DNA of 64,000 nt. Source: Gammaproteobacteria bacterium (GTDB lineage: Bacteria > Pseudomonadota > Gammaproteobacteria > Steroidobacterales > Foliamicaceae). Location: positions 62,001 through 126,000 of the forward strand of contig WTGP01000026.1 in the NCBI GenBank assembly GCA_011523505.1, written 5' to 3'. Each line of letters opens with the position of its first letter. Position 1 is the stretch's first letter. The notes under the pieces are model-generated. The model saw nothing but the letters and a program-made list of their open reading frames with translations, was not told where the DNA came from and did not search any database. Shown piece by piece: positions 30,611-47,015 of the stretch. Made by a program: the position numbers and the translations under genes.

Positions 30611-32542
30611 ATGCGCAAGCGGCAACAGGCACGGTTCGGTGCGGGCATAACGCGGCGCGACTTCGTCAACGGGGTGGCGGCCGGCGCCGGCACCGCTCTC
30701 ACGGCGGGCGCTGCTTCGGCCTATGGGCAGGCGGTATCCGATCCGCTGGTGCTGTCGCTTGGCGACGACTGGTACGGCTACGGCGGGGTCGGACCCTACC
30801 GTCATTCGCACGGCAACTCCCCGGAAGTCGTGGAAGCGGCGCATCGCATTCTCGACGGTCGCTTCCCGGTCGATTTGGACCAGCTGGAATCGGTCGAGGA
30901 ATACGATCTGGCGATCGTGGGGGGAGGGATGGCCGGCCTGGGCGCTGCGCTTGAGTTCTCACTCAGGCGCGGGAACGGTCAGACCTGCATCCTGCTGGAC
31001 AACCATCCCATGATCGGCGGCGAGGCCAAGGAAAACGAGTTCCTGGTGAACGGTGAACGGCTGATTGCGCCGCAGGGAGCGAACGGTTTCTTCGTGCCGG
31101 ATGCGCCGGGCGACTTGAGCGCCGCCCGAGGGGACCCGTATTACTACGCCGAGCTTGGCATTCCGCGGGAGTTCACGTTCGCCTCCTGGCCAGAAGACAA
31201 GAAGCCCCTGCGTTTTTGCCGCGACAACTACGGCTACCTGGTAGTCGGACTGCAACGCAACGCCAGCGTGGGACACTTCTTCGAAGATGGAGGCGGCGGC
31301 GAGGGCTCCTGGGCCGTCGACATGTTCCACAATCGGCTTGCCGACACTCCGCTTGGGGAAGCATCGCGAAAAAGCCTGATGGCGTGGTTCGAGTCCGGCG
31401 CCGCCCGCCGTTTCGATTCGCCGGATCGGGCGCGGCGGGCGCTCGACACGATGTCTTACGAGCAGTTTCTCCGCGACGAACTGGACCTGGGCGAGGAGGG
31501 GATCCGTTACGCGGACCTGTTCCTCGCTTCCGCCTGCGGCCTTGGGAGCGACTGCGTGTCGGCCTATGCCGCATACCAGATGCCCATGCCCGGACTGTTC
31601 GGCCCCATGCCGGACGGCATGCGGCGGGTCTCGTTTCCCGGCGGAAACTCCGGGTTCGTCCGGTACTTTCTCAAGCGGCTGGTCCCGGACTCGATCCGGG
31701 GCGGGTCCAGCTTCGAGGACATCATCACAATGCCGGTGAACACGGCCGCGCTGGACCGGCCGGGCCAGCCGATCCGCATGCGCACGAACGCTACCGCAGT
31801 TCATGTCTCGCATGAAGGCGCCGCGGCAGACGCGGGTTCCGTTGCCGTGATCTACACGCGCAACGGGGGCTACCACGGCATCCGGGCGAAGGCGGTCGTG
31901 ATGGCTACGGGGAACTGGATCAATCGGTTGATCGTGCGCGATATGCCGCCTTCGTACCGGGAGGCCTGCGCAAGCTTCCTGCATGCGCCCTTCCTGGTGG
32001 CCAACGTGGCCCTGACGAATTGGCGCTTTCTCTACCGGCTCGGCATTACCGCCGCGATCTGGGACCGGCAGGAAGACGGATTCGGCTTCACCTGCAATAT
32101 CCGCAACCCGATGCAGGTGGGCGACTACAGGCCGCCGCTTGATCCCGACAAGCCGGCCGTCCTGTCTTTCTATACGCCCTTTCATTCGCCCGGCCTCGAC
32201 CCGAAGGTGCAGGTCACGCTGGGCCGGGCGGAACTGCTCGGCGCCTCCTATCCCGAATACGAGGCACGGATCCACCGTCAGATGATGCGTCTGTTCGCCG
32301 CCGCCGGATTCGAGCCGGCGAAGGATGTTGCGGGCCTCATACTCAATCGCTGGGGGCATGCGTATTCGGTGCCGTATCCCGGGTTTTACGGCGGCGCGAA
32401 CGGCACGGCGCCGCGCGATACGCTTCGGAAGAACTACGGGCGCATCGCGTTCGCGCACTCCGAACTCGACGGCAATCAGCATTACGGGCCGGCCGCCGAC
32501 GAAGGCCGCCGGGCGTACCGTCAATTGGCGGACGCGCTTTGA
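30611..32542 (+). CDS. Tat-exported FAD-dependent oxidoreductase
   Basis: The start is ATG 30611. The track start 63 bases earlier adds a non-signal extension. The 643-residue product has a twin-arginine signal (ITRRDFVNGVAAGAG, RR at 15-16). An FAD-binding Rossmann motif follows at about residues 100-112 (YDLAIVGGGMAGLGAA). The late segment KAVVMATGNWINRLI is typical of flavin amine-oxidase-like or FAD/NAD(P) proteins. It would act as a folded flavoprotein in the periplasm. The substrate is unknown. It lies next to the SDR of the left catabolic arm but on the opposite strand, ending 16 bases from it. Confidence 0.8.
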   Translation: MRKRQQARFGAGITRRDFVNGVAAGAGTALTAGAASAYGQAVSDPLVLSLGDDWYGYGGVGPYRHSHGNSPEVVEAAHRILDGRFPVDLDQLESVEEYDLAIVGGGMAGLGAALEFSLRRGNGQTCILLDNHPMIGGEAKENEFLVNGERLIAPQGANGFFVPDAPGDLSAARGDPYYYAELGIPREFTFASWPEDKKPLRFCRDNYGYLVVGLQRNASVGHFFEDGGGGEGSWAVDMFHNRLADTPLGEASRKSLMAWFESGAARRFDSPDRARRALDTMSYEQFLRDELDLGEEGIRYADLFLASACGLGSDCVSAYAAYQMPMPGLFGPMPDGMRRVSFPGGNSGFVRYFLKRLVPDSIRGGSSFEDIITMPVNTAALDRPGQPIRMRTNATAVHVSHEGAAADAGSVAVIYTRNGGYHGIRAKAVVMATGNWINRLIVRDMPPSYREACASFLHAPFLVANVALTNWRFLYRLGITAAIWDRQEDGFGFTCNIRNPMQVGDYRPPLDPDKPAVLSFYTPFHSPGLDPKVQVTLGRAELLGASYPEYEARIHRQMMRLFAAAGFEPAKDVAGLILNRWGHAYSVPYPGFYGGANGTAPRDTLRKNYGRIAFAHSELDGNQHYGPAADEGRRAYRQLADAL

Positions 32543-32557
32543 GCTGAGCCCGCGTCG

Positions 32558-33313
32558 TCAGACGCGGTCGGATCGGCCGCCGTCCATCGTGATATTGGCG
32601 CCGACGACGAACCGCGCCCGGCGCGAACAGAGGAACACCACCACGTTTGCAATCTCTTGCGGCGTAGCCATGCGGCCCAGCGGGATCTCTTCGGCCTTCC
32701 TGCGAACGTATTCGGGGTCTTCCGCCTCCAGTTGTGCCCAGATCCCGTCTTCGGACCAGGTCGGGCCGGGCGAGACCACATTGACCCGGACGCCGCCGGT
32801 CGCGAGCTCGTGTGAGAGACCCTTGGCGATGTGCGCCAGCGCAGCTTTGGTTGCCCCGTAGGCGTCCCGCTTGCGCGACGTAGCGGCCGAGGTCGAGCCG
32901 ATGACGACAACGGCGGCGTCGCCGGATTCCCGGGCGGAGTCCTCGAGGTGCGGGGCAACGAAATCGACGATGCGGCTCAGCGCGGCGATCTCGACTTGAA
33001 AGTTGCTCTGCCAAGCTTCTTCGGTGTCGCCGGCGGCCATGGCACTGGCGTTGAGCACGAGCAGGTCGAGGCCGCCCAGGCGGGCGATGGCCTGGTCCAG
33101 CCACTCCAGCGTCGAGCCGGATTCCTCCAGGTCCACGGCCGTGCCCTGAACCGCGGCCGAGGAAGCGCTGCCCGACGGCGGCGTGGCGGACAGCGAACGG
33201 GCGCAGTACTCGACACGGCACCCTTCGGAAGCCAGTCCTTCGACGATGGCGCGTCCTATGCCGCGGGAGCCGCCGGTGACGATTGCCCGCGATTGGCCGA
33301 GGTTCAGGTCCAT
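32558..33313 (-). CDS. Short-chain dehydrogenase/reductase (left arm)
   Basis: A 251-residue SDR with TGGSRGIGRA for NAD(P) binding, LNASAMAAG in place of NNAG, active-site Ser (IGSTSA) and YxxxK as YGATKAALA, then VSPGPT. It likely oxidises or reduces a hydroxyl/keto group in the cytoplasm. It is the last gene of the GntR-led minus-strand operon, 36 bases after the nucleoside phosphorylase-like gene. A second SDR lies in the divergent arm, so two separate redox steps may exist in the pathway. Confidence 0.88.
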   Translation of the reverse strand: MDLNLGQSRAIVTGGSRGIGRAIVEGLASEGCRVEYCARSLSATPPSGSASSAAVQGTAVDLEESGSTLEWLDQAIARLGGLDLLVLNASAMAAGDTEEAWQSNFQVEIAALSRIVDFVAPHLEDSARESGDAAVVVIGSTSAATSRKRDAYGATKAALAHIAKGLSHELATGGVRVNVVSPGPTWSEDGIWAQLEAEDPEYVRRKAEEIPLGRMATPQEIANVVVFLCSRRARFVVGANITMDGGRSDRV

Positions 33314-33349
33314 TTCGGTTGTGTCCGGGCGGCCGAGGTCGAGGGCCCC

Positions 33350-34099
33350 TCAGGCCGGATCGACCTGCTTCAGGGCTTCAAGGGCGATGGAGATGAGCGT
33401 GCGCTCGGCTTCGGCGTGCTCCCGCTTGCCGATTTTCTGCTTCCTCAGGCTGTTGACGGTGGATGCGCACATGCTTCCCGCCTTGCAACCCAGGGCCTTG
33501 CCGACCGTAAGAATCGCGGACGTCTCCATGTCGACGGCCAGCACGTCCTGCCCGGCCAGTCGTTCCAGGTTATTGCGAACCCGGTCTTCGGTGTCTTCGT
33601 CCAGCGCGAACATGTCCTGGTAGAAACCGTCGAAACTCGCAAAGGCGCCGACATGGTGGGTGGCCTCGCGCCGCGACGCCGCGCGGGTCAGGGCGCTCAC
33701 CAGCCCGGGATCGGCGCTGGAGTTTCCGGCGCCGTGAGCGTATGCGGAGGACGTGCCTTCGAACGACCTGGCGTTCCGGGCGATGATCATGTCGCCGATG
33801 TTGACGGGAGAGAGCCCGATGCTGGTGCCTATGCGCAGGAATACCGAAGCGCCCAGGTTGGCCAGTTCGTGCAGCACGATCGCGGCGATGGGGGAGCCCA
33901 TCCCGAACGCCGACAAGGTGATCCGTGTGTCCCCGTACATCCCGGTCACGGTAGCGAGCCCGCGGTTGACCGGCATCGCCTCCACGTCGCTCAGGTATTG
34001 ACTGAAACGGGGCACCCGGCCCGGGTCGCCCAGCAGAATGACCCGTTCGGCCACCTGCTCGGCGCTGCATCCGATGTACCAGGCCTTTCGCGAATTCAT
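33350..34099 (-). CDS. Nucleoside phosphorylase family enzyme (uridine/purine phosphorylase-like)
   Basis: A 249-residue PNP/UDP-family protein. VILLGDPGRVPRFSQYL gives the phosphate-binding Gly/Asp-Pro-Gly-Arg motif. IGTSIGLSPVNIGDMIIA is the usual core strand, and VDMETSAILTVGKALG carries the ribose-binding Met-Glu. These enzymes split a nucleoside with phosphate to base and sugar 1-phosphate. It lies six bases after the PfkB kinase gene, which suits a route that handles both the base and the sugar. Substrate class (uridine, inosine, modified nucleoside) cannot be read from the sequence. Confidence 0.87.
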   Translation of the reverse strand: MNSRKAWYIGCSAEQVAERVILLGDPGRVPRFSQYLSDVEAMPVNRGLATVTGMYGDTRITLSAFGMGSPIAAIVLHELANLGASVFLRIGTSIGLSPVNIGDMIIARNARSFEGTSSAYAHGAGNSSADPGLVSALTRAASRREATHHVGAFASFDGFYQDMFALDEDTEDRVRNNLERLAGQDVLAVDMETSAILTVGKALGCKAGSMCASTVNSLRKQKIGKREHAEAERTLISIALEALKQVDPA

Positions 34100-34105
34100 A
34101 TCCCG

Positions 34106-34960
34106 CTACCCATATGAGCGTTCCCGTAACAGCGATGCGGCCGCGTCGATGCCGCTCGCGACAACGGTCCGCAAGTCCGATTCTCCGGCAAGCAGCGCCG
34201 CCAGGCAGCCGCCCGCCAAAGTATCGCCGGCGCCCGAGGCATCGTCGAAGGACAGGGGTTCCACGTCCACCCGAACCGTGATGCCGTCCCATTCCGCCTG
34301 GACGGCATCGCCACCGGCGGTTTCCACGATCACGGGCCGGCGGTGCCCAGGAGTTGCCGCCAGCCCTTCATCGACCCACTCGCGCTCCTGGCGATTGCAA
34401 AAGATGTAGTCGGCGCGCGCGGCCAGCGCCGTGCGAAGTTCGATCGGATACGAGAGCGGATCGTTTTTCATGACCCATGCCACCTTGCAATCGCCGTCGA
34501 TCAGGTCCAACGCCTCGCGGGCGATCCCGGGAGGCCCCACGGTGACGCACAACAAATCGGCGGCCGCGATTACCTCCTTCTGCCGGCCGGTCAGCGTCTC
34601 CCGTCCCAGCATGCCCGGATCGAACAGGCAGCCGCAACTGCCGTCCTGCTGGTAAATCATGAAACACACGGGCGTGTTGCCCGGCTTAATCGTCGCGATC
34701 GCTTCCACGCCGACGCCGTCGCCTTCGGCCCAGGAAGTGAACAGCTCGCCGTGATGATCCGCGCCCACCCAGGTCACGACGGAAACTTCAATGCCTTCCC
34801 TGGCGATCGGGCGGGCCACATAAAGCGGGCAACCGCCCGGGCGGGGAAAGGCGTCGGCGGGGCGCTGCCGGATCATGACCGTGCGGTCACCCGAAAAAAA
34901 ACCGTCGAGCACCGCGGGAAAGTCGATCGACGCATATCCGATCACCGCCACCCTGTTCAC
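34106..34960 (-). CDS. PfkB-family sugar or nucleoside kinase
   Basis: A 284-residue ribokinase-fold protein with the C-terminal PfkB signature DDASGAGDTLAGGCLAA (catalytic Asp in GAGD) and an N-terminal YASIDFPAVLDGFFSGD. It phosphorylates a sugar, nucleoside or related alcohol using ATP. Its start overlaps the isochorismatase-like gene by four bases and its stop is six bases from the nucleoside phosphorylase gene. The pairing with a phosphorylase suggests a nucleoside or ribosyl substrate, but this is inferred. Confidence 0.87.
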   Translation of the reverse strand: MNRVAVIGYASIDFPAVLDGFFSGDRTVMIRQRPADAFPRPGGCPLYVARPIAREGIEVSVVTWVGADHHGELFTSWAEGDGVGVEAIATIKPGNTPVCFMIYQQDGSCGCLFDPGMLGRETLTGRQKEVIAAADLLCVTVGPPGIAREALDLIDGDCKVAWVMKNDPLSYPIELRTALAARADYIFCNRQEREWVDEGLAATPGHRRPVIVETAGGDAVQAEWDGITVRVDVEPLSFDDASGAGDTLAGGCLAALLAGESDLRTVVASGIDAAASLLRERSYG

Positions 34961-35532
34961 GACAGCAGCCTGACGCCCTCTTCAAGCGGCACGACCCAGC
35001 CCAGGTAGCGTTCGATGTCCTCCAGCGATGCGTCCGCCAGGTGCGGGCGATTGGAGTTGACGGCGTCGCGCACGACGTGGCAGCGATACCCCAGCGAGAA
35101 AGCATCCTGAACCGTCGCCCGCACGCACACGTTTGCCTTGACGCCGCCGATTACAAGTGTTCCTACGTTGAGTTCGCGCAGCAGCAGGTCAAGGTCGGTG
35201 GCCTGAAATGCGCTCATGCGCCGTTTCGGCAGCAGGATTTCGCCCTGGCCCCGGGGCGAGAAGCCCTCGACCAACTGCGAATCGAATTCGCCGTCCACAC
35301 AATGGACCGGGAGCTTGGCCTGCTCGAAGTCGGTCAGCCCGGGCCGGTGCCGCTCGGCTACGAAAATGACGGGGCGTTGCGCATTTCTGGCGCTTCGAAG
35401 CAACGCCCGCAGAGCGGGGAGCAACTCGGCGCTTTCGGAATAGTAGTTCTGACCGTCTTCATGAAAGAAGGAATTCTGCAGGTCGATGAGCAACAGCGCG
35501 ACGGCTGTGGCGTTTCCCATGTGCTCGCTCAC
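34957..35532 (-). CDS. Isochorismatase-family cysteine hydrolase
   Basis: A 191-residue cysteine hydrolase with the Asp-Lys-Cys triad: Asp17 in LLLIDLQNSF, Lys103 in LLPKRRMSAFQ and Cys136 in GGVKANVCVRATVQDAF. Relatives hydrolyse isochorismate, nicotinamide, carbamates or ureido compounds. GTG 35532 overlaps the GntR stop (GTGA); ATG 35520 is an alternative. Within a nucleoside-type operon it could cleave an amide or ureido group on the released base. That role is inference. Confidence 0.88.
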   Translation of the reverse strand: MSEHMGNATAVALLLIDLQNSFFHEDGQNYYSESAELLPALRALLRSARNAQRPVIFVAERHRPGLTDFEQAKLPVHCVDGEFDSQLVEGFSPRGQGEILLPKRRMSAFQATDLDLLLRELNVGTLVIGGVKANVCVRATVQDAFSLGYRCHVVRDAVNSNRPHLADASLEDIERYLGWVVPLEEGVRLLS

Positions 35533-36323
35533 GAAGACTTGCGCGGGTCGTTCGGCTCTCTTTCATGGTACAGCACCGACAGCGGATTCGAGCGCACCAG
35601 GCGAGCGTCGTACGTATAGCAATCCTGAAGATAGACGGCTTCGATCAGCTCGATGAGATTGCCTCTTTGATCGAAGCTCTTTCGATGCACGAGCATTACC
35701 GCGGACGGCAGCTCGATGCCAAGCTGTTCGGCTTCCTTGTCGGTGGCCAGACGGACGTTGATGGTTTCGTCGGCATGGTCAATCTCGAGTCCGGCTTCAT
35801 CGAAGGTCTTGTAAAGCGAGAAATCCGAATCCGCCACGCGGCTGTCAGGTCCTGTCAGCGCCGCCACGTCCGCGGCAATGCGCATGGGCACGAGCGCCGT
35901 ATGTATGGCCCACGGCAGGCCATCGACATAGCGGATTCGCTCCAGCAGCAATGCCGGCTCGTCGCAGCCGTACTGCAGGGCCTCGCTACGGTCAAGCTGC
36001 CGCTGTTCCATCAGGCGGTGCGAAGGGACCCGTCCCTGGCGCCGCACGGTTTCCGAGAAACCGCGCAGGTAGCCGGGAGAGCGGTGCAGGGCAGGGCGCG
36101 ACACGAAGGTTCCCACGCCCTGGCGACGCTGCAGCAGCCCTTCGGCGAGCAACACGTCGATGGCCTTTACGACCGTGCCCCGGCTCACGCCGAACTTGAG
36201 GCAGAGTTGCGCCTCGCTGGGCAACAGGTCGCCCGGCACCCATCTGCCCGCGCGAATGCCGTCACGAAGCTCATCGGCCAGGACCGCGTAGCGCGGTTTT
36301 CCTGCGTTCCGGTGTGGGGTCAT
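35529..36323 (-). CDS. GntR-family regulator with UTRA domain (HutC subfamily)
   Basis: The start is ATG 36323 rather than the TTG at 36359. The 264-residue product has an N-terminal GntR winged helix (LPSEAQLCLKFGVSRGTVVKAIDVLLAEGLLQRRQGVGTFV). A UTRA ligand-binding domain follows from about residue 95 to the end (LLLERIRYVDGLPWAIHT...LIEAVYLQD). UTRA proteins sense small ligands, often sugar phosphates or amino-acid breakdown products. It heads the minus-strand operon and faces a TonB receptor gene across a 140-base region with a palindromic operator, so it probably controls both arms. Confidence 0.92.
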   Translation of the reverse strand: MTPHRNAGKPRYAVLADELRDGIRAGRWVPGDLLPSEAQLCLKFGVSRGTVVKAIDVLLAEGLLQRRQGVGTFVSRPALHRSPGYLRGFSETVRRQGRVPSHRLMEQRQLDRSEALQYGCDEPALLLERIRYVDGLPWAIHTALVPMRIAADVAALTGPDSRVADSDFSLYKTFDEAGLEIDHADETINVRLATDKEAEQLGIELPSAVMLVHRKSFDQRGNLIELIEAVYLQDCYTYDARLVRSNPLSVLYHEREPNDPRKSS

Positions 36324-36367
36324 CGGGAGTATTCCTCGTGTGGAACTGCGATTGTGCAAATGACTAC

Positions 36368-36396
36368 TTGACTAGTCAACTGAATCATTATATTTT
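36368..36396 (+). promoter_or_regulatory. Divergent promoter with palindromic GntR operator
   Basis: TTGACTAGTCAA (36368-36379) is a perfect 12-base palindrome. Its left half TTGACT works as a -35 box for the TonB receptor gene, 17 bases before TATTTT (36391-36396). On the minus strand the same palindrome gives TTGACT followed 17 bases later by CACAAT before gntR. A GntR dimer here would block both promoters. Confidence 0.6.
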
Positions 36397-36463
36397 CATT
36401 CCGTACCGGTGCTTCAATTGCTGTCGGGTCATGCGATAAATCCATCCATCAAGGGGACACGCC

Positions 36464-38746
36464 ATGCGAAAGATTTTATTGATCCTTACCGCCGTCTCGA
36501 TCCCATTCCTGATTGCGGACATCACGGTTGCACAGGAATCAACTGCGGTTCTCGAAGAGATCGTCGTCACCGCCCAGAAGCGTGAGGAGTCGCTTTCCGA
36601 CGTGGGCATTGCGGTGGACGTGATCAGCGGTGACCGGTTGCGTGAGGCCGGCGCCCTGTCGCTGATCGAAGTCGGACGGTTCTCTCCGGGCCTCAACATA
36701 CAGACGCCGTTCGGGGAATTCGGCTATCCGCTGATCGCGATACGCGGCGTGAACACCGACGGCTTCATCGAAACGCTGCCTCAGTCCACCGGCGTCTATG
36801 CCGACGGAGTCTATGTCTCGCAACCGCCCATGCAGGCTTTTCGGTTGCTCGATCTGGAACGTATGGAGGTATTGAAAGGGCCGCAGGGAACCATTTACGG
36901 GCGCAATACCATCGCCGGAGCCATCAATCTCATCTCCAGGCGTCCCACTTTCGAGCCGGAAGGATATGCGACCGTGGGATTCGGCCGCTACAGCAGGGCA
37001 TCGTTCGAGGGGGCCTACGGCGGCCCGATCTCGGACACGGCAGCCGGGCGGATTGCCGTGAAGTACCTGCGGCAGACGGACAGCCCCCTCACCAACCTGG
37101 ATCCGAATCTGGACGATGGTGGCGAACTCGATCAACTGATGGCGCGCGGGTCCCTGTTGTTTCGGCCGAACGATGATGTCGAGTTGCTGGTGCGGTTCTA
37201 CGCCGGGCGCGACGATTCGGACGTCTGGCCCTGGGCGGCCATCCCTGCGGGTCAGGACACGGATGGGGACGGCATTCCGGACCAGGTCTGCCCCGAATAT
37301 GCGCGCGGGGACGTTGCCGCGGCCCAGGTGAATTGTCTTGCCAGGGACCCGTTCGTCAGCGGTAACACGTTCAACGATACGGACGGAGATCCATACACGA
37401 TCAACCAGAATGCGATCGGTAACCACGGATACCGGTCAAGCGGCATTTCCGCGGAATTGAACTGGAGTCTCAGCCGGATGACCCTGACCTCGGTGACCGG
37501 TTTCGACGATTTCGAACGGCACGACATACTGGACGAGGACGCCGGGCCGACCGTGGCCCTGGACGATGTCCGGAAATCCGACGTGTCGCAGTTCTCGCAG
37601 GAAGTGCGGCTTGCATCCGACGCCGGCGACGGAATGCAGTGGCTGGCGGGGATTTACTATTCTTCCGACGAGATGGAAGGCGATCCCTCCTTCGATTCGG
37701 GCGGCCGCCAGGATTACTCGACTCTGGAAACCGACACTCTCGGCGTGTTCGGGCAGATCGAATACCCCCTTGCCGACAATCTGGCCCTGACCGTGGGCGG
37801 CCGGTGGACCGACGTGCAACGCGATTTCGACTATCGAACGACCGGTTTCTTCGCCTCCGCCGAACTCAAGGCCGGTGCGAGCAGTTCGTTTTCGGACAGC
37901 GACTATTCCGCCCGGGTGGCGCTGGATTGGAACTACAACGACAACACACTGATCTACGCCAGCATTTCCCGTGGATTCAACGCCGGCACCTTCAACAGCC
38001 AGTTCCTGGCGACCGTCGACAACCTGGAGCCGACAAAATCGGAATCGCTGACCGCCTATGAGGTCGGTCTCAAATCGACATTTGCCGGCGGGCGGGCGAG
38101 CGTCGAGGCTGCCGTCTACTACTACGACGCCACCGATCCGCAGGTGGTCGCCGTTGAACCCCTGAGTCTTATATCGGCCAATTTCCTCATCAATGCCGAT
38201 GACTCGAAGATGCAGGGCGGTGAGATTCAGCTTCGCGCACTTGCCGCGGACTGGCTGGAACTCAGCTTCGGCGCGGCGTACATCGACAGCGAATACGGCA
38301 ACCTGGTGACTTCCGTGGCCGGGACGGGCACGGGCAGCCCGTACCCGGACAATGCCCCGGTGTTCGGATCCACCCTCGCGGACCTCACCGGCAACCGCAT
38401 TCCGAACACGCCCGAATTGAGCATCAATTCATCGGCCACGGTCGAATGGCCCGTAACTGACGGGTGGCGCTTCATCGGCCAGCTGGACTTTCTGTGGGAA
38501 GACGACATACCGCGGGATCTCCGCGCCTCGCCGGCTTTGTTCACGGAATCCCATATCGACGTGGACCTGCGATTGGCCTTGCGGTCCGCGGACGACAAAT
38601 GGGATGCCGCGTTCTGGGTGCGTAACCTGACGGATGAGACTTACCTCACCGAAGCGTACGAAGTGCTCGGATTCGGCTTCTACATCGCGGCCGGCAACTA
38701 CAGCTATCCCAGGACCTTCGGGCTCGAACTGACCCGAAATTTCTAG
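36464..38746 (+). CDS. TonB-dependent outer-membrane receptor (right arm)
   Basis: A 760-residue receptor with a signal peptide ending near residue 24, the TonB box-like EEIVVTAQKREESLSDV, a plug with GVNTDGFIETLPQSTGVYADGVYV and LKGPQGTIYGRNTIAGAINLIS, and a 22-strand-type barrel ending in F (LELTRNF). It is the IroN/proteobacterial organic-substrate type rather than an evident siderophore receptor. It brings the unknown substrate across the outer membrane. It is transcribed away from gntR from the shared palindromic promoter. Insert loops carry DTDGDGIPDQV-like calcium-type motifs. Confidence 0.92.
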   Translation: MRKILLILTAVSIPFLIADITVAQESTAVLEEIVVTAQKREESLSDVGIAVDVISGDRLREAGALSLIEVGRFSPGLNIQTPFGEFGYPLIAIRGVNTDGFIETLPQSTGVYADGVYVSQPPMQAFRLLDLERMEVLKGPQGTIYGRNTIAGAINLISRRPTFEPEGYATVGFGRYSRASFEGAYGGPISDTAAGRIAVKYLRQTDSPLTNLDPNLDDGGELDQLMARGSLLFRPNDDVELLVRFYAGRDDSDVWPWAAIPAGQDTDGDGIPDQVCPEYARGDVAAAQVNCLARDPFVSGNTFNDTDGDPYTINQNAIGNHGYRSSGISAELNWSLSRMTLTSVTGFDDFERHDILDEDAGPTVALDDVRKSDVSQFSQEVRLASDAGDGMQWLAGIYYSSDEMEGDPSFDSGGRQDYSTLETDTLGVFGQIEYPLADNLALTVGGRWTDVQRDFDYRTTGFFASAELKAGASSSFSDSDYSARVALDWNYNDNTLIYASISRGFNAGTFNSQFLATVDNLEPTKSESLTAYEVGLKSTFAGGRASVEAAVYYYDATDPQVVAVEPLSLISANFLINADDSKMQGGEIQLRALAADWLELSFGAAYIDSEYGNLVTSVAGTGTGSPYPDNAPVFGSTLADLTGNRIPNTPELSINSSATVEWPVTDGWRFIGQLDFLWEDDIPRDLRASPALFTESHIDVDLRLALRSADDKWDAAFWVRNLTDETYLTEAYEVLGFGFYIAAGNYSYPRTFGLELTRNF

Positions 38747-38781
38747 GCCGGGGGCACGAAGCACCAGAGGGAACGCCTGCC

Positions 38782-39246
38782 ATGCCGGAGGAAAAGCCGA
38801 AAGTCGCGATTTCGATCATCACGCTGGGCGTTGACGACGTCGAGCGCTCGGTGCGGTTCTACACCTCGTTCGGCTGGGAAATGTCGCCGGACTCCGACCC
38901 GGCCATGTGCACCTTCATCAATACGCCTTCGACGGTTCTTGGGCTGGTCGGGTACGAGTTCCTGGCCAACGACGCGCTGCTGAAGGCCAAGCCCCGCGCG
39001 CAATACCAGGGCTTCACCCTGGCCGTGAACGGCTCGTCTCCCGAGGAGGTGGACGCGATATTCGAGAACGCCATACGCAACGGCGGCACCGCGCATCAGC
39101 AACCGCAATGGAAGGACTGGGGCGGGTACGACGGCTATTCCGGCTATTTCCTCGATCCGGACGGTTACCCCTGGGAAGTCGCCTACGCCCCGTTTCTCGA
39201 ACTTACCGACGATGGCCGGCTGATGCCCAAGTCCGCGTCCGAATAA
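38782..39246 (+). CDS. VOC-superfamily (glyoxalase-like) protein
   Basis: A 154-residue single-unit VOC protein: ISIITLGVDDVERSVRFYTSFGWEM at the start and GYFLDPDGYPWEVAYAPF at the end, giving the paired beta-alpha-beta-beta-beta modules. One likely metal ligand, Glu in WEVAY, is visible, but the partner His is not obvious. It may be an isomerase, a lyase or a binding protein. It lies 35 bases after the TonB receptor and 16 bases before an SDR, so it belongs to the right arm. Confidence 0.85.
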   Translation: MPEEKPKVAISIITLGVDDVERSVRFYTSFGWEMSPDSDPAMCTFINTPSTVLGLVGYEFLANDALLKAKPRAQYQGFTLAVNGSSPEEVDAIFENAIRNGGTAHQQPQWKDWGGYDGYSGYFLDPDGYPWEVAYAPFLELTDDGRLMPKSASE

Positions 39247-39262
39247 GGGGAATTGCGCAGGC

Positions 39263-40003
39263 GTGGCAACGGAGACCTCTCGCGGACTGGCGATCGTCAC
39301 CGGCGCCAGCCGCGGCATCGGACGCGCGCTGGCGATCGGACTGGCTGAGGCCGGTTACGGGCTGGCGCTGGTGGCGCGCGACGAGGGCGCGCTCAACGGC
39401 GTGCGGGCGGAGATTCAAGACGTCGATCCGGGCATTGCCGCGAGTTGCCATTCGCTCGACGTCACCGACGCGGCGGCGGTCCGCAAACTCGTTTCCTCGC
39501 TGGCGTCCGAACACGATGCGATCGACGTTCTGATCAATAGCGCCGGCCAATTCCGGCCCGGCAGCATTGAAGCGGAGGTCGAGGACCTGGAAACGGTTGT
39601 GGACACCAACCTGAAAGGCGCGTTCCTGATGCTGAAGGCGGTGGTGCCCGTGATGAAGGCGCAAAAACGCGGCCACATCATCAATCTGTCGTCGATTGCG
39701 GGGAAGTGGGGCTACGCGGGATATGGCGTATATGCTGCATCCAAGTTCGCTTTGCAGGGCCTGTCGGAAAGCCTGTACAAGGAGATGCTGGAGCACGGCG
39801 TGAAGGTGACGGCGATCTGTCCCAACTGGGTCGCGACGGAAATGGCCGTCGCCGCCGGCGGAACCCTGCCTCCGGAAGACATGAATCAGCTTGACGATCT
39901 GGTCGGGACGGTGTCGTGGCTCTTGAGCCTTTCAAAGGCCGCCTGTCCCCGCGAAGTGGTGATCGATTGCATGGGGCATCCGTATGACAGGAATACGCAA
40001 TGA
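39263..40003 (+). CDS. Short-chain dehydrogenase/reductase (right arm)
   Basis: A 246-residue classical SDR: TGASRGIGRALAIGLAEAGYGLALV (NADP-type), INSAGQFRPG, IINLSSIAGKWGYAGYGVYAASKFALQGL (Ser and YxxxK) and CPNWVATEMA. It starts at GTG 39263 behind AAGGGG, and its stop overlaps the MFS gene start (ATGA). It would carry out one redox step of the right-arm pathway. Confidence 0.9.
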   Translation: MATETSRGLAIVTGASRGIGRALAIGLAEAGYGLALVARDEGALNGVRAEIQDVDPGIAASCHSLDVTDAAAVRKLVSSLASEHDAIDVLINSAGQFRPGSIEAEVEDLETVVDTNLKGAFLMLKAVVPVMKAQKRGHIINLSSIAGKWGYAGYGVYAASKFALQGLSESLYKEMLEHGVKVTAICPNWVATEMAVAAGGTLPPEDMNQLDDLVGTVSWLLSLSKAACPREVVIDCMGHPYDRNTQ

Positions 40004-41130
40004 AAGTGGACAACCGTAATTTCGCCGGCGCGCTGGGCATCTACACGATCGGGGGCCTGTTCTGGGCGTTCCTGCCGTTCTTCGTGGGACTGAAGGTGTC
40101 GACCGGCGGGTTCAGCCAGACGCAGGCCGGCTCGCTCGGTTCCGCCTACCTGATCGGTTTTTCGGTCGCATCCATGACCGCGCTGTGGTGGGCGGGGCGT
40201 TTCAACTGGCGGAAACTGGCCGCGGTCATGGCCGCCGTCGTGATCGCCGCGCTGCTATTGCTGGCGAGGGTCGAAGGCTTTGGAATGAGCCTCATGATCG
40301 TTCCCGTCGTGGGGCTCATGATGGGCGCGTTCTGGACGGTCGCGTACCGGATATTCAGCGGCTCGGCGAACCCGGAACGTGCCTTCTCGATCGGAATCGT
40401 GGTGTCGTACAGCGCGCTCGCGCTGGTGACCTTCGTCATCGGCGAGTACGTGGTCGCCGACTTCGGGCTGAGCGGTTCCAGCTATGTGCTGGGCGGCGTC
40501 GTCCTCTTGCTGGCGCTATCGGCGCTGCTGCTGCCGCGCGCCCTGGCATCGGGCGGCGAAGACTCCGGCCAGGCCTCGTATCGTCCGTCCATGCCTGTGG
40601 CCCTGGCGCTGCTCGCGATCCTGGGCACCAGCTTCGGCTTTGCGGCCGTGTGGGCCTTTACCGAGAGAATCGGCATCGACGCGGGGTTCAATACGTCGCA
40701 GATCAGCCCCGTCATCGCGTCCAACCTGCTGGCGTCGGCGGGCGGTTCGGTGCTCGCGACCCTGCTGGGGATGCGGGTCGGACGCATGCTGCCGCTGTTC
40801 GTTGGAATGCTCGCGATCCTGGTGTCCATCGTCAGCCTGGCCGCGGTGGACAGTTTTTCGACCTATGCGGCCGCGGTCGCCGGCCTGGGTCTCTCCATAG
40901 GCTTCGTGATGCCCTACCAGATGGGTTATCTCGCTGCGTTGGATCGCGACAACCGTTTCGTGCTGCTGATTGCCGCCGCGCAGGGCATAGGCTCCGCCGC
41001 CGGGCCGTTTGCCGGAGGCGCCGCGGCGGACGCGGGCGGATACCGGTTGCTGGTGATCGTGGCCGGCGCCGTCGTTGCCGCGAGCATGCTGGCCATACTG
41101 ATTTCATCAAGGGTGAAGAACGAATCATGA
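40000..41130 (+). CDS. MFS transporter
   Basis: A 376-residue protein with about 11-12 membrane segments and the two-fold MFS layout; the second half begins near residue 205 after a short charged loop. The motif FGTSFGFAAVWAFTERIG occurs in the second half. Coupling to the SDR before it and the SIS gene after it (both ATGA) indicates that it moves the operon's substrate or product across the inner membrane. Direction and substrate cannot be told from sequence. Confidence 0.88.
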   Translation: MKVDNRNFAGALGIYTIGGLFWAFLPFFVGLKVSTGGFSQTQAGSLGSAYLIGFSVASMTALWWAGRFNWRKLAAVMAAVVIAALLLLARVEGFGMSLMIVPVVGLMMGAFWTVAYRIFSGSANPERAFSIGIVVSYSALALVTFVIGEYVVADFGLSGSSYVLGGVVLLLALSALLLPRALASGGEDSGQASYRPSMPVALALLAILGTSFGFAAVWAFTERIGIDAGFNTSQISPVIASNLLASAGGSVLATLLGMRVGRMLPLFVGMLAILVSIVSLAAVDSFSTYAAAVAGLGLSIGFVMPYQMGYLAALDRDNRFVLLIAAAQGIGSAAGPFAGGAAADAGGYRLLVIVAGAVVAASMLAILISSRVKNES

Positions 41131-41891
41131 GCATTATTCAGGACTACCGGCGATTGCTGGAAGAGAAGCTGGCCCTCGTTTTCGACAACCAGGAAGATAC
41201 GATCGACAGCGCGGCGGAGATCTGCGCCGCCAGCATCGGCAAGGGCAAGCTCGTGTTTACCTTCGGAACGGGCCATGGCTCGTTCGCCGCGCTGGAGATG
41301 TTCCCGCGCACCGGCACCGCGGTCGGGTTCCGGCCGATTGTCGAGAGCACGATGATTTCGTTTCATCGGGTGCTGGGCGACATGGGCGCGAGGCAATACC
41401 GGTTCATTCACGCCCAGGAAGGCTACGGGAAGGCGATACTGTCCTCGCATCAGACCGACCCGGATGACGCGATGCTGATCTTCTCGCATTCTGGAATCAA
41501 TGCCGTGACCATGGACATTGCCGTCGGCGCCAGGGAGATCGGGATGAAGGTCATCGGCGTAACCAGCGTCCCGCATTCCTCGCAAGTCCCGTCCCGGCAT
41601 TCTTCCGGCAAGCGCCTGTTCGAAGCGGCCGATGTCGTTATCGATACCGGCGCCCCGCTGGGCGATGCCGGCATTTCCATAGACGGCCTGGAAGGCAGCG
41701 TCGGCGCCACCTCGACCAGCGTTGCCATTGCGGTGGGACAGGCCATCAACGCCGCCACGGTGGAAAAGCTGGTGGAGCGTGGCGCGCAGCCGATGATCAT
41801 GGTCAGCCCGAACACCACCGAGAAAGCCAGGGCGAACCAGCTCAACGATCTGAACTACGAGGAGTTGTGGCGACGCTTGTCCTCGCGGTAA
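41127..41891 (+). CDS. SIS-domain phosphosugar-binding/isomerase protein
   Basis: The start ATG 41127 overlaps the MFS stop; the 568-residue track ORF reads through the MFS gene in another frame. The 254-residue product has a SIS fold: GKGKLVFTFGTGHGSFAALEMF, DAMLIFSHSGINAVTMDIAVGAREIGMKVIGVTS, with the Ser/Thr-rich loops that hold phosphate. It belongs to the UPF0309-like sugar isomerase group. Together with a PfkB kinase and a nucleoside phosphorylase in the divergent arm, this suggests handling of a phosphorylated sugar. Confidence 0.87.
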   Translation: MSIIQDYRRLLEEKLALVFDNQEDTIDSAAEICAASIGKGKLVFTFGTGHGSFAALEMFPRTGTAVGFRPIVESTMISFHRVLGDMGARQYRFIHAQEGYGKAILSSHQTDPDDAMLIFSHSGINAVTMDIAVGAREIGMKVIGVTSVPHSSQVPSRHSSGKRLFEAADVVIDTGAPLGDAGISIDGLEGSVGATSTSVAIAVGQAINAATVEKLVERGAQPMIMVSPNTTEKARANQLNDLNYEELWRRLSSR

Positions 41892-41901
41892 TCTCCCGCG
41901 A

Positions 41902-43365
41902 ATGCCACCGTCACTAAAGTGTCTGCCCTTCTACGGGGGCGAATTTCACGCCCCGGCGTCCGATGAGTGGCACGTTGTAGCAGATCCCGCGGACGGTTCG
42001 CGGGTCGGGCGCTGTGCGCTTGCGAACGCCGCGGACATTGACCGGGCCGTCGGCCATGCGTTGCGGGCCAAATCCGCCTGGGCGGACATGCACGCCGATG
42101 CGCGCGCCGCGATCCTTCATCGTGCGGCGGACCGAGTCGAAGCGCGGACCGACGAGATCGCGGAACTCCTTACAAGGGAGCAGGGCAAGCCGCTTTGCGA
42201 CAGCCGCAAGGAGATCGGCTTCGGGGTCCAGGTGATCCGCTATTACGCCGAGGAAGGCCGGCGCAAGTTCGGTTCGCTGCGGCCTTCGTCGCTGCCGAAC
42301 GTCAAGAACGTGGTTTCGTATTTCCCGGTCGGCGTAGTCGGTGCAATCGTGCCCTGGAACTACCCCGTGGACCTGTACTGCTGGAAGGTTGCGCCGGCGC
42401 TGGCGGCCGGCTGCCCGATCGTCGTCAAGCCGCCGCACGAGACGCCGTTCGCCATTGCCGTGGTGCTGGAGTGCTTCGTGGAGGCGGGCGTGCCTTCGGG
42501 CGTGCTGGCCAACGTGCCGGGCACCGGGCCCGAGGCCGGCGCCGCGCTTGCCCGCCACCCGGCCGTCGCCTGCATTTCCGCAACCGCCTCGGTTGCGGCC
42601 GGACAGGACATCATGCGAAACGCGGCCGGCAATCTGAAACGGCTGTCGCTGGAACTGGGCGGGCACTCCCCGTTCATCGTGCTGCCGGATGCGGACATCG
42701 AAGCGGCGGCCAAGGCCGCCATGCGCCGTTCGTTCTCCAACATGGGACAGATCTGCATCACGGTGAACCGCGTCCTCACCCACCCGGACGTCCATTCGCC
42801 GTTCGTGGACGCGCTGGTCGCGGAAACGGAAACGATCGAACTTGGTCCCGGCCTCGACCCCGGCAGGCTGTACGGTCCGGTCACGACGGCCTCGGTGATC
42901 GAGCGCTCGCAGCTCCACATCGACGACGCGGTTTCCAAAGGCGCCAGGGTCATCATCGGCGGCGGCCGCGCCGCAAGCAACAAGCTGGACAAGGGCCTGT
43001 TCTTTCAGCCTACGCTGCTCGATGGCGCGCCGCTCGACAGCCTTCCAATGACCGAGGAAACCTACGGGCCGGTGGCCGCCATCAGAAGTTGCGCGTCGCT
43101 GGATGAGTTGCTGGCCGTGTCGAACAGCCTCAACTTCGGGCTCGCCGCCTACGTCTACTCCGAGAACCTGGAGCTGGCCTGGGCCTTGGCGGACCGCCTG
43201 GAATTCGGGGCCGTGGGCATCAACGTGTCCGACACTTCGGAACTCCAGGCGCCGTTCGGCGGCTGGAAGCTCAGCGGTTTCGGTCGGGAGCTCGGGCCGG
43301 AGGGCCTGGACGCGTTTCTTGAGCCCAAACATGTCAAGATGCGAGTGAACCCGCTGGGTTCCTGA
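41902..43365 (+). CDS. NAD(P)-dependent aldehyde dehydrogenase
   Basis: A 487-residue ALDH-superfamily enzyme with the fold signatures PWNYPVDLYCWKVAPALAAGCPIVVKP, catalytic Glu in LSLELGGHSPF and catalytic Cys in FSNMGQICITVNRV. The end FGGWKLSGFGRELGPEGL is normal. It resembles succinate-semialdehyde or gamma-aminobutyraldehyde-type enzymes. It would oxidise an aldehyde intermediate of the right-arm pathway to an acid. It starts 10 bases after the SIS gene. Confidence 0.92.
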   Translation: MPPSLKCLPFYGGEFHAPASDEWHVVADPADGSRVGRCALANAADIDRAVGHALRAKSAWADMHADARAAILHRAADRVEARTDEIAELLTREQGKPLCDSRKEIGFGVQVIRYYAEEGRRKFGSLRPSSLPNVKNVVSYFPVGVVGAIVPWNYPVDLYCWKVAPALAAGCPIVVKPPHETPFAIAVVLECFVEAGVPSGVLANVPGTGPEAGAALARHPAVACISATASVAAGQDIMRNAAGNLKRLSLELGGHSPFIVLPDADIEAAAKAAMRRSFSNMGQICITVNRVLTHPDVHSPFVDALVAETETIELGPGLDPGRLYGPVTTASVIERSQLHIDDAVSKGARVIIGGGRAASNKLDKGLFFQPTLLDGAPLDSLPMTEETYGPVAAIRSCASLDELLAVSNSLNFGLAAYVYSENLELAWALADRLEFGAVGINVSDTSELQAPFGGWKLSGFGRELGPEGLDAFLEPKHVKMRVNPLGS

Positions 43366-43383
43366 TCCCAGGGAGGAGTATTA

Positions 43384-44331
43384 GTGAGCATTCACCCGGA
43401 ACTGCTGCCGTTTCGCGATCAATTCCCGACACTGGAATTGACCGGCGAAAACCTTGTGCAGACGCGCGGGGAACTGAACCGTATGACGCTGGAAACGGCG
43501 GCGACGATAGAGGGATTCGATCACGTCGATGTCGCGGACAGGCAGATCGACGGTCCCTCCCCCGGCCAGTCACTCAGGCTCCGGCTGTATTCAAGCGGCA
43601 GTTCACCGGGCTTGCGGCCGTGTATTTTGTGGATTCACGGCGGCGGCTACATCCTCGGCTGTCCCGAGATGGACGAGCAGCTTCTTTGTCGCAAGGCCGA
43701 CGAGCTGGGCTGCCTTGTCGTGGCCGTCGATTACCGCCTGGCGCCCGAGCATCCGTACCCGGCGGCCCTGGACGATTGCGATGCGGCCCTGGGCTGGATT
43801 CTGGAGAATGCCTCGGTGCTGGGCGTGGACACGAGCACGCTTGTGCTGGGCGGGGCCAGTGCCGGCGGGGGCCTTGCGGCGGCGCTGGCGCTTCGCGCGC
43901 GGGACCGCCGGCCCGGCGCGATCACCTTTCAGTGCCTCATCTATCCCATGCTCGATTACCGTACGGGCTCCGCGGAGGCGGAAAGCGCAAGGGATTACTG
44001 GCTGTGGGGCGCCGATCACAACCGCTTCGCCTGGAGCGCCTACCTCGGTCCTAACGACATGACTCACGGCGTCCCGCCGTTGGCCTCGCCGGCGATGGCC
44101 AAACGGCTTGACGGCCTGCCGCCCACTTACCTGTGCATCGGCGACCAGGACCTCTTCTACGAGGAAGATATCGACTACGCGCGGCGCCTCCGCGACAGCG
44201 GAGTGGCGGTAGAACTCGAAGTCGTCCCCGGAGCGCCGCACGGGTTCGACAAATTGCCCGCGCCCTTGTCCGAACAATCCCTGCAGCGCCGTTTCAGGGC
44301 GCTTTCCCGGCACTTCTCGGCGCAATCCTGA
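43384..44331 (+). CDS. HSL-family alpha/beta hydrolase
   Basis: A 315-residue hormone-sensitive-lipase-type esterase: HGGG oxyanion motif at 85-88 (IHGGGYILG), GASAG elbow with Ser159, acid in GDQDLFYEED and His in PGAPHGFDK. GTG 43384 follows the strong GGGAGGAG ribosome site. It would hydrolyse a small ester or acyl group on the substrate. It sits between the aldehyde dehydrogenase and the quinoprotein gene with gaps of only 18 and 12 bases. Confidence 0.92.
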   Translation: MSIHPELLPFRDQFPTLELTGENLVQTRGELNRMTLETAATIEGFDHVDVADRQIDGPSPGQSLRLRLYSSGSSPGLRPCILWIHGGGYILGCPEMDEQLLCRKADELGCLVVAVDYRLAPEHPYPAALDDCDAALGWILENASVLGVDTSTLVLGGASAGGGLAAALALRARDRRPGAITFQCLIYPMLDYRTGSAEAESARDYWLWGADHNRFAWSAYLGPNDMTHGVPPLASPAMAKRLDGLPPTYLCIGDQDLFYEEDIDYARRLRDSGVAVELEVVPGAPHGFDKLPAPLSEQSLQRRFRALSRHFSAQS

Positions 44332-44343
44332 ATCGAGGGAAAG

Positions 44344-46350
44344 ATGCGCAATCTTCCGCACAACCGGCTGCCGTTGATGCTGGCGATACTGGCAGCCGCC
44401 CTGCTCGCCGGCTGTGGGGATAACGGCAGGCAGCCGTTCGAGGCGCGCCCCGTCGTTGAGGATCCGGGCTGGCCCACGTACGCGGGCGCGGAAGGGGGAA
44501 CGCGCTATTCGCCGCTGAACCAGATCAACCGCTCCAACGTGGAGGACCTGGAAATCGCCTGGACCTACAACACGGGTCACCTGGATCTCGCGCCGCAGTT
44601 GCGGCCGATGGTGGGCTTTCAGGTGACTCCCATTCTCCTGCCGGACGAGGCCGGGCGGCACCTGGTGTTGTGCGATCCATTGAACCGGATCATGGCGCTG
44701 GACCCGGAGACTGGAGAAGAACGCTGGCGGTTCGATCCCGAGATCGATCTAAGACCGTTCGCCGGGCGCTTCAACTGCCGTGGCGTGACGCACTGGCGCG
44801 ACCCCGAGGCCGCCGAAGCGGACGCTTGCGCGCACCGTCTCATTCTGGCCACCAACGACCGCCGCCTCGTCGCCGTCGATGCGCGTACCGGCCAGCCTTG
44901 CGCGGAGTTCGGCGAAGACGGGTTTGTTGACGTAACGCCGATCATTCTCGAACTGCAGCCGGCCAACCAGCTCCTCACCATGCAGCTGAATTCCCCGGCC
45001 GCGGTGGTCAACGGCGTCATCGTCATCGGCGGGACCGCCGACAAGTTCAAGGACGCCAGTTCCATGAACGGCGCCGTGCGGGCCTTCAGCGCCCGGACCG
45101 GCGAGCACCTGTGGACCTTCGACACGCTGATCCGCGAACCGGCGGACGATCCCGAGAGCAGCGCCTGGCATGTCGGCGGCGCCAACGCCTGGATCAACAT
45201 GACCTGGGACAGCGAACGCGACCTGGTCTTCATCCCCACCGCCAGTCCCGCGCCGAATTTCTACGGCGGCAAGCGTCCGGGCAACAACCTCTATGCGAAC
45301 TCCGTCATTGTTCTTCGCGCCGCCACCGGGGAACTGGTCTGGCACTACCAGGTCCTGCATCACGACCTTTGGGACTGGGACCTCCCGACCAATCCCATAC
45401 TGGCGGAGATCACGCGTGACGGCGAGAAGGTCCCGGTTGCGATGCAACTGACCAAGCAGGGAATGATCTTCACCTTCCACCGCTATACCGGCGAGCCTTT
45501 CTTCGGGATCGAGGAGCGTCCGGTTCCGACCGACGGCATGCCCGAGGACGACGTTTCGCCCACGCAGCCGTTTCCGGTCAGACCGCCGCCGCTGGTCAAG
45601 CACGGGATCGGCCCGGAAGACGCCTGGGGGTTGACGCCCTATGACCGGAACAAGTGCCGCGAACTGATCGAGTCGATGCGCTACGGTCCGATCTACACGC
45701 CGCCGACCACGGAGTTCACGCTGATGATGCCGAACGTGGGCGGAGGCATGAACTGGGGCGGGGGCGCCTTCGACCCGAACAGCAACATCCTGGTTACGCC
45801 GGTGGGCGAGTCGCCTTATTCGCTGCGCCTGGTGCCCAACGCGGACATGGATCCGGAAGCGGCCGGAGCGCCGATGGCGGGGCTGCCGACCGGACCGCCC
45901 GGATACATTGAAGGAACCGACTACGGTCTCGAGCAGGGCCCCCTGTTCTCGCCCTTCATGATGCCGTGCACGGCGCCGCCCTGGGGCAAGCTGGTGGCCG
46001 TGGACATGGCCGCGGGCGAGATCCTCTGGGAAGTTCCGCTTGGACTCGTCGACAAGCTGTCGCCGGTCCCCATACCGCTGCGCTGGGGCACGCCGTTCGC
46101 CGGCGGGCCGATCGCTACCGGGGGCGGCCTGGTCTTTATCGGCGCCACCGCCGACGAGCGCTTCCGCGCCTACGACACCGAATCCGGCGAATTGCTCTGG
46201 GAGATCGAAGGCCCGACATCCGCCAACGCCACGCCGATGACCTATATGGCCGGCGGCAGGCAATACGTCGTTGTCGCCACCGGAGGGCACAACTGGGTCT
46301 ATCCCTTCAAGAAAGGCGACTCGCTGATCGCCTACAGCCTCCCCGATTGA
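44344..46350 (+). CDS. PQQ-dependent dehydrogenase, outer-membrane or periplasmic lipoprotein
   Basis: A 668-residue quinoprotein with signal and lipobox LLAGCG. Propeller blades include YSPLNQINRSNVEDLEIAWTYNTG, HHDLWDWDLPTNPILAEI and GGGMNWGGGAFDPNSN, all typical of the glucose/quinate/alcohol PQQ family. It lacks the N-terminal membrane domain of E. coli Gcd and the haem domain of quinohaemoproteins, so it must pass electrons to a separate acceptor. It may oxidise the substrate in the periplasm before uptake. PQQ synthesis genes are not in the window. Confidence 0.92.
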   Translation: MRNLPHNRLPLMLAILAAALLAGCGDNGRQPFEARPVVEDPGWPTYAGAEGGTRYSPLNQINRSNVEDLEIAWTYNTGHLDLAPQLRPMVGFQVTPILLPDEAGRHLVLCDPLNRIMALDPETGEERWRFDPEIDLRPFAGRFNCRGVTHWRDPEAAEADACAHRLILATNDRRLVAVDARTGQPCAEFGEDGFVDVTPIILELQPANQLLTMQLNSPAAVVNGVIVIGGTADKFKDASSMNGAVRAFSARTGEHLWTFDTLIREPADDPESSAWHVGGANAWINMTWDSERDLVFIPTASPAPNFYGGKRPGNNLYANSVIVLRAATGELVWHYQVLHHDLWDWDLPTNPILAEITRDGEKVPVAMQLTKQGMIFTFHRYTGEPFFGIEERPVPTDGMPEDDVSPTQPFPVRPPPLVKHGIGPEDAWGLTPYDRNKCRELIESMRYGPIYTPPTTEFTLMMPNVGGGMNWGGGAFDPNSNILVTPVGESPYSLRLVPNADMDPEAAGAPMAGLPTGPPGYIEGTDYGLEQGPLFSPFMMPCTAPPWGKLVAVDMAAGEILWEVPLGLVDKLSPVPIPLRWGTPFAGGPIATGGGLVFIGATADERFRAYDTESGELLWEIEGPTSANATPMTYMAGGRQYVVVATGGHNWVYPFKKGDSLIAYSLPD

Positions 46351-46355
46351 CGCGC

Positions 46356-47015
46356 ATGAAAGCGGAATTCTGGCTGAACAAATGGGAATCGGGGGAGATT
46401 GCGTTCCACCAGGAATCCATCAACGAGTCGTTACAGGAACATTGGCCGTCGGTGCGGGCGCCGGCCGGCGGCGCGGTTTTCGTTCCGCTGTGCGGCAAGT
46501 CGCTGGACATGCGCTGGCTGGCGGAGCAGGGCCACCCGGTCGTTGGACTGGAAGTGAGCGCGCTGGCCTGCGACGCGTTTTTCGATGAGCTTGAAGCCAG
46601 ACCGGTCATCGAAGAGGCCGGGGCCTTTCGTTGCTACAGCGCCGGCTGCTACCGCATCCTCCAAGGCGATTTCTTCACCGCGACGGCCACGGACCTGGGC
46701 GAGATTGCGGCCTTCTACGACCGTGCGGCGCTGGTCGCCATGCCGCCGGACCTGCAGCCGAAATACATGCGCCAGTTGACGAGCCTGCTGCCGCCGGGCT
46801 CGGTTGGGCTGATCAACAGTCTCGAATATCCGCCGGAGGTCATGGAGGGGCCGCCATTTTCCATTGGCGAAACACAGCTCCGCGAACTGCTTGGGCCCCG
46901 TTGCCGGCTAAGCCGTCTTGCGGCCCGCGAAATCAATACCGAGGGAACCAGCCTGGAACAAAAGGGCCTGGTTGGTCTCGCCGAAACCGCGTACCGCGTG
47001 CAAATCGGCGATTGA
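46356..47015 (+). CDS. tpm: Thiopurine S-methyltransferase family protein
   Basis: The start is ATG 46356, five bases after the quinoprotein stop; the longer track ORF lies inside that gene. The 219-residue product has the TPMT signatures FWLNKWESGEIAFHQ, VFVPLCGKSLDMRWLAEQGHPVVGLEVS and LINSLEYP. Members transfer a methyl group from SAM to thiol or selenium/tellurium compounds. As the last gene of the right arm it might detoxify a sulfur-bearing product, but it could equally be a bystander gene. Confidence 0.92.
   Translation: MKAEFWLNKWESGEIAFHQESINESLQEHWPSVRAPAGGAVFVPLCGKSLDMRWLAEQGHPVVGLEVSALACDAFFDELEARPVIEEAGAFRCYSAGCYRILQGDFFTATATDLGEIAAFYDRAALVAMPPDLQPKYMRQLTSLLPPGSVGLINSLEYPPEVMEGPPFSIGETQLRELLGPRCRLSRLAAREINTEGTSLEQKGLVGLAETAYRVQIGD

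Follow-up and report, generated by a model that had tools for sequence, protein, structure and literature searches.

Our analysis of a 64,000-nucleotide stretch of DNA from a gammaproteobacterium of the family Foliamicaceae (assembly GCA_011523505.1, contig WTGP01000026.1, positions 62,001 to 126,000; hereafter the window) has highlighted an eleven-gene cassette (32551-43381), arranged in two divergent arms around one GntR/UTRA regulator gene, which is probably a self-contained regulon for the catabolism of a nucleoside-type substrate. The sequences show the gene content, the co-inheritance of the genes, one operator motif, the absence of the cassette as a unit from genomes of the same genus and the retention of phosphate-site and amidase residues in its enzymes. 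The repression of the cassette, the class of its substrate, the order of the steps and the reactions of the SIS protein and the aldehyde dehydrogenase (ALDH) are predicted from these sequences. The nucleoside-like substrate, which had been suggested in an earlier note on this DNA, is likely because a BMP transporter is found in the homologous operon, the phosphate residues of the phosphorylase and the residues of the amidohydrolase are kept, and a parallel operon is known from archaea.

Six genes form the core of the cassette. On the minus strand lie the genes of the regulator (35529-36359), an isochorismatase-like cysteine amidohydrolase (Icm; 34957-35532, PF00857), a PfkB-family sugar kinase (34106-34960, PF00294) and a nucleoside phosphorylase (NP; 33350-34099, PF01048), and on the plus strand those of the SIS protein (41127-41891) and ALDH (41902-43365, PF00171), the final gene of the conserved cassette. 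With the SIS protein as probe, 28 loci were found in named genomes and two further on rhizobial plasmids; within one rhizobial family, a close SIS homologue occurred in 28 of the 299 genomes sampled. Altogether 48 distinct loci were examined, window included (51 sequences, in which L091, L092 and L094 repeat L021, L022 and L027). The core was complete in 45 of these, from proteobacteria and actinobacteria, and the three loci without the full core (L011, L013 and L021) are contigs ending within the operon. ALDH comes after SIS in every locus of sufficient extent. The gene arrangement is not due to chance, as dozens of loci in distant genomes have the core.

The two arms belong to one unit, as they are jointly missing from two genomes of the genus, share a single operon in rhizobia and actinobacteria, and carry one operator motif in every group. 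In the plasmid copy of A. vitis, for example, the annotated order is GntR, BMP binding protein, ATPase, two permeases, Icm, kinase, NP, SIS and ALDH. The contrary situation, in which related genomes would hold the arms apart under different regulators, was looked for and was not found. The pairwise distance matrices of the six core proteins correlate with r of 0.65-0.95, a descriptive measure since relatedness is not taken into account in the Mantel shuffles. In a tree of the six genes, the gammaproteobacteria are joined by Sphingomonas and Rudaea; all of these use a TonB receptor and an MFS transporter, and this placement is consistent with horizontal transfer accompanied by a change of transporter. 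The cassette is thus common to two phyla and has apparently moved between them by transfer.

The limits of the cassette are given by two genomes of the same genus (G001 and G005) in which SIS is absent. In case of G005, blastn matched window positions 30617-32550 to L129 5123-7055 and the window from 43382 onward to L129 from 7147 onward; 92 bases separate the two flanking matches, and the missing piece, 32551-43381, runs exactly from the dehydrogenase SDR1 to ALDH. G005 keeps the flanking oxidoreductase together with the HSL esterase (43384-44331), PQQ lipoprotein (44344-46350) and TPMT methyltransferase (46356-47015) genes, all three of which follow ALDH on the plus strand of the window. In G001 both arms are absent and HSL, PQQ and TPMT are kept, with a less sharp boundary because of a 0.9 kb unmatched stretch. 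Another genome, G006, carries the cassette but has lost VOC and all of SDR2 except a 148-base remnant, and other genes stand in the place of PQQ. The two open reading frames in its place (L108 13350-15374), the first of which is DNA methyltransferase-like by eye, form a possible restriction-modification pair between HSL and TPMT.

These genomes bear directly on the proposal, taken from the earlier note, that the fourteen genes make a full pathway for one substrate. Such a pathway, in which import across the outer membrane would be combined with PQQ oxidation in the periplasm, cleavage of an ester, phosphorolysis and transfer of a methyl group by the TPMT enzyme, we regard as very improbable. 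HSL, PQQ and TPMT do trail ALDH at gaps of 5-18 bases, and HSL stands behind ALDH in Woeseia (52% identity) and in G004 as well; however, the three genes stand alone in G001 and G005, PQQ is replaced in the regulon-bearing G006, and no locus from outside the taxonomic order of the window was seen to contain HSL-PQQ-TPMT. About half of the proposal is borne out: isomerization of a sugar phosphate by SIS and outer-membrane import of the substrate may reasonably be assumed, but the trailing genes drop out, since they are retained in genomes without the regulon. Periplasmic PQQ oxidation and methyl transfer by TPMT are hence not conserved steps, and ester cleavage is probably not one either, given that HSL persists where the cassette is absent. 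PQQ, TPMT and the FAD oxidoreductase are mere neighbours of the cassette, and the membership of HSL is borderline, as it follows ALDH in Woeseia and G004 but is retained where the cassette is absent. In G004 (L011 3522-5290), SIS, ALDH and HSL are immediately followed by a relative of the GATase-like gene of window 59055, so that the right neighbour differs there. The PQQ lipoprotein is nearest to membrane-bound PQQ dehydrogenases (592 bits, under the TIGR03074 cut-off of 833), and with HSL and TPMT it forms a separate trio in G001 and G005.

One repressor apparently runs the cassette through one DNA switch. The regulator is a GntR/UTRA protein of HutC type, matching PF00392 with 68.6 bits (curated cut-off 27) and PF07702 with 76.2 bits (cut-off 23.8). 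Beside its gene, the perfect palindrome TTGACTAGTCAA (36368-36379) is the operator candidate; it has a single match in the window with two mismatches allowed and a single match in its genome. The motif TTGWCYRGWCAA was found beside the regulator gene in 45 of the 48 distinct loci, with a total of 50 sites where a first-order Markov model predicts about 0.35, a ratio which flatters the motif because the consensus was drawn from those loci. The exact TTGACTAGTCAA, which had been chosen from the window prior to any scan of the other loci, was present in 16 of the 28 SIS-found loci. Among 20 genomes checked, 15 carried this exact form, to which the count is confined, in 1-3 copies each and always at the cassette locus. 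As for the loci without TTGWCYRGWCAA, the regulator region is missing from the sequence of L011 and L021, and L023 has TGACTAGTCGACTAGTCA upstream of the regulator. Rudaea has its own copy of the palindrome for each arm and a Pseudomonadales locus has three copies, each separate transcription unit in these loci having a palindrome.

Read on either strand, the palindrome contributes TTGACT, with a weak -10 element at a spacing of 17 bases, and it overlaps the predicted -35 boxes of both divergent promoters. The candidates, identified by consensus scan and by position over the operator, are TTGACT-17-TATTTT for the right arm (36368-36396, plus strand) and TTGACT-17-CACAAT for the left arm (36351-36379, minus strand). 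By itself the scan does no better than chance, with 3 promoter-like sites found in 18 kb where 3.1 are expected, so the assignment of the promoters rests on the conserved operator site. The position of the left-arm promoter makes ATG 36323 the probable start of the regulator in place of the listed TTG 36359. A scan for terminators yielded no excess over chance. Like the HutC-type GntR/UTRA repressors, the regulator combines this domain architecture with a short palindromic site at the promoter, whereas the site TTGWCYRGWCAA and the content of the regulon are particular to this locus.

Among the enzymes, NP is a member of the PF01048 superfamily (115 bits, cut-off 25.1), in which it forms a separate clade. 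Its phosphate-site motifs GD..R, RGL and R.GT are invariant or nearly so, and its ribose residues (DME) are invariant. In uridine phosphorylase, Gln166 and Arg168 bind uracil and His8 binds O5', and in the DeoD purine nucleoside phosphorylase Asp204 is catalytic. In the alignment with NP, the Gln166 and Arg168 positions are replaced, that of His8 is an invariant Tyr8, and Asp204 of DeoD falls on an invariant Val215. Retention of the phosphate and ribose residues together with the absence of the usual base residues makes it probable that NP is a phosphorylase whose base specificity differs. Ordinary nucleoside salvage by a redundant uridine or purine operon was considered in this light. Uridine phosphorylases are the best fold matches of NP (AlphaFold model, pLDDT 93.6), and its top NCBIfam match is the uridine phosphorylase model TIGR01718; at 138.4 bits, however, NP lies far under the cut-off of 280.3, the catalytic base residues of both enzymes are not kept, and five fixed enzymes with a private regulator exceed the needs of salvage, so that this explanation is quite unlikely. 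NP as a canonical uridine or purine phosphorylase was rejected on the score and the base residues.

The transport genes of the operon differ between taxa. The TonB-dependent receptor (36464-38746, PF00593 and PF07715) and the MFS transporter (40000-41130, PF07690), both on the plus strand, are conserved together in Woeseia, Sphingomonas, Rudaea and other gammaproteobacteria, and the receptor may reasonably be inferred to import the substrate across the outer membrane. In rhizobia and most actinobacteria, including Leucobacter and Thermocrispum, the operon holds a nucleoside-type BMP ABC transporter, a counterpart of the PnrA/BmpD-type systems, in place of which the window and its relatives use the TonB receptor and MFS transporter; no BMP-type binding protein is present in the locus of the window. 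Solved relatives of the BMP-family binding protein include PnrA/TmpC and BmpD, and the latter binds adenosine and inosine (PMC7093131). L016 (12306-17955) and L035 (12281-17930) each hold a further BMP-type ABC transporter, a divergent one, encoded on the opposite strand immediately downstream of the operon.

In Icm, the residues D17, K103, C136, H62, E70 and H77 are invariant and position 60 is Asp or Glu. When compared with the catalytic triad and four zinc ligands of the nicotinamidase SpNic (PMC6271260), the Asp/Lys/Cys triad and the Asp, His, Glu and His ligands were matched, the match of E70 requiring a one-residue gap. The triad and candidate zinc ligands are thus common to Icm and the zinc nicotinamidases (SpNic, PncA), whereas Icm falls under the cut-off of the curated nicotinamidase model NF008623 (PRK11609; 47.4 bits against 174), always occurs in this operon and has a fold equally near to other hydrolases, as RutB and biuret hydrolases rank level with nicotinamidases in Foldseek (model pLDDT 91.7). 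Because Icm keeps the nicotinamidase residues and NP has no base-protonating residues, the best single guess for the substrate, to be held tentatively, is nicotinamide riboside, or else a closely related nucleoside of an N-heteroaromatic carboxamide, with a dedicated catabolic pathway. In that case NP would cleave the glycosidic bond of a cationic base, for which no base-protonating residue is needed, the freed ring nitrogen would bind the zinc of the amidohydrolase with release of ammonia, and a new SIS-type isomerase and ALDH would channel the phosphorylated pentose to metabolism along a route undescribed in bacteria. Against nicotinamide riboside, no NAPRTase match was found in four of ten operon-bearing genomes (G000, Woeseia, Rudaea and Nocardioides); the released base could not be salvaged in these, which weakens nicotinamide salvage.

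The remaining core enzymes would act on the sugar. PfkB is generic, with a weak match to the ribose-1-phosphate kinase NF053626 (54.8 bits, cut-off 330), and its GAGD motif is invariant; ALDH is likewise generic by family. The SIS protein is a member of the PRK02947/UPF0309 family (NF002805, 257.8 bits against a cut-off of 135), to which NagS (SCO4393) of Streptomyces, a GlcNAc-6-phosphate dehydratase with the essential residues His53, Arg64, Glu94 and Asp179, also belongs (PMC12680351). The positions H53, R64, S119, S121, D179 and N228 are common to both proteins, whereas in SIS the Glu94 position is an invariant His (with a four-residue insertion, a gap in the alignment, nearby), the phosphate-binding Ser54 is Gly, and the setting is nucleoside-type and not amino sugar. 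SIS as a member of NagS was rejected on the replacement of Glu94, and for the same reason isomerization is favoured over dehydration. The variant in which SIS works as a dehydratase in the manner of NagS, and ALDH would oxidize its product, a 3-deoxy-2-oxo aldehyde phosphate, to a 2-keto-3-deoxy acid phosphate, would account for ALDH always following SIS, and most of the active-site residues of the family are kept; in view of the invariant His and the Gly it is nevertheless rather improbable. A distant SIS relative on a Martelella plasmid (L040 7947-8738) has nagA and the genes of a ROK kinase and a sugar ABC transporter in its vicinity, consistent with amino-sugar roles of other branches.

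Certain observations weigh against a nucleoside-type catabolic regulon. Nocardioides carries a sugar-type CUT2 ABC system instead of the BMP transporter, so the substrate might be more sugar-like. This would agree with a non-nucleoside N- or O-glycoside cleaved by NP as a glycoside phosphorylase, as would the loss of the usual uracil and purine residues and the Tyr in place of the O5' histidine; but the BMP-family nucleoside transporter in most homologous operons and the invariant ribose residues of NP make such a substrate unlikely. Further, phosphopentomutase is present in Woeseia and in three rhizobial genomes checked (four of the nine other operon-bearing genomes), where plain ribose-1-phosphate would need no PfkB, SIS or ALDH; the sugar may be unusual. 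It is absent from G000, Sphingomonas, Rudaea, Nocardioides and Thermocrispum, with a sub-threshold match in Leucobacter. The operon as a simple substitute for missing phosphopentomutase was rejected on its presence in those four genomes, and either the sugar or its route is special. Lastly, the operon holds no aldolase or phosphatase; a class II aldolase occurs in nine of the ten genomes, and none was seen linked to the operon. A Rubisco-linked, carboxylating route was also rejected, as PF00016 is absent from G000 and from six of the nine other operon-bearing genomes.

For the nucleoside-type regulon, the following mechanism may be proposed. A UTRA repressor bound to TTGACTAGTCAA would cover the -35 boxes of both divergent promoters and be released upon binding the substrate or an intermediate. 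The substrate would be taken up through the TonB receptor and the MFS carrier, or through a BMP-type nucleoside ABC system in other taxa, and NP would split it with phosphate into base and pentose-1-phosphate. The zinc-type amidohydrolase would deamidate the freed base, predicted to be an N-heteroaromatic carboxamide, and PfkB would phosphorylate the sugar phosphate, which SIS would then isomerize. Finally, ALDH may oxidize an aldehyde derived from the isomerized sugar phosphate.

Among described systems, the one nearest to the cassette comes from halophilic archaea. It is their non-carboxylating pentose bisphosphate pathway, in which an operon of urdpase, a PfkB ribose-1-phosphate kinase and an isomerase channels nucleoside ribose to central metabolism (PMC9700705). 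A phosphorylase-like enzyme, a PfkB kinase and an isomerase are found in both, whereas the archaeal isomerase is an R15P isomerase and not SIS, and no amidohydrolase, ALDH or UTRA regulator is described there. A search of the literature for the gene combination found no described pathway, with thin coverage of subscription journals, so that one may have been missed.

Regarding the layout of the window, gene calls and profile matches identified all fourteen genes named earlier around the regulator gene, in the families assigned to them, and the coordinates bear out two tight divergent arms. Spacing within the arms runs from 4-base overlaps up to 36 bases, and the sole wider spacing is the divergent gap, which measures 104 bases when counted to the listed start of GntR and 140 when counted to its probable start. 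The region given for these genes holds them, but its start at 30611 falls inside a separate, convergent DAO-type FAD oxidoreductase gene (30548-32542), which had not been listed and lies outside the unit. SDR1 (32558-33313, minus strand, PF13561) is the terminal gene of the left arm; every sampled member of the genus whose left arm is intact has it, as does Woeseia (57%), whereas other loci lack it at that position, and as a left-arm gene it is confined within the sample to the taxonomic order of the window. VOC (38782-39246, plus strand, PF00903) is an accessory gene, and in Nocardioides L031 the operator is followed first by a gene of 60% identity to it; SDR2 (39263-40003, plus strand, PF00106) is likewise accessory. 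At 29807-30514 the window encodes a 235-residue protein without a Pfam match, of which up to four copies per genome are present within the genus.

Hence, our study describes a compact catabolic unit with its own switch, in which five enzymes are named together and for which culturable hosts exist. If the sugar branch is as proposed here, it would represent a bacterial use of nucleoside sugars that by-passes phosphopentomutase, and SIS would add a new activity to a family from which one dehydratase has been characterised.

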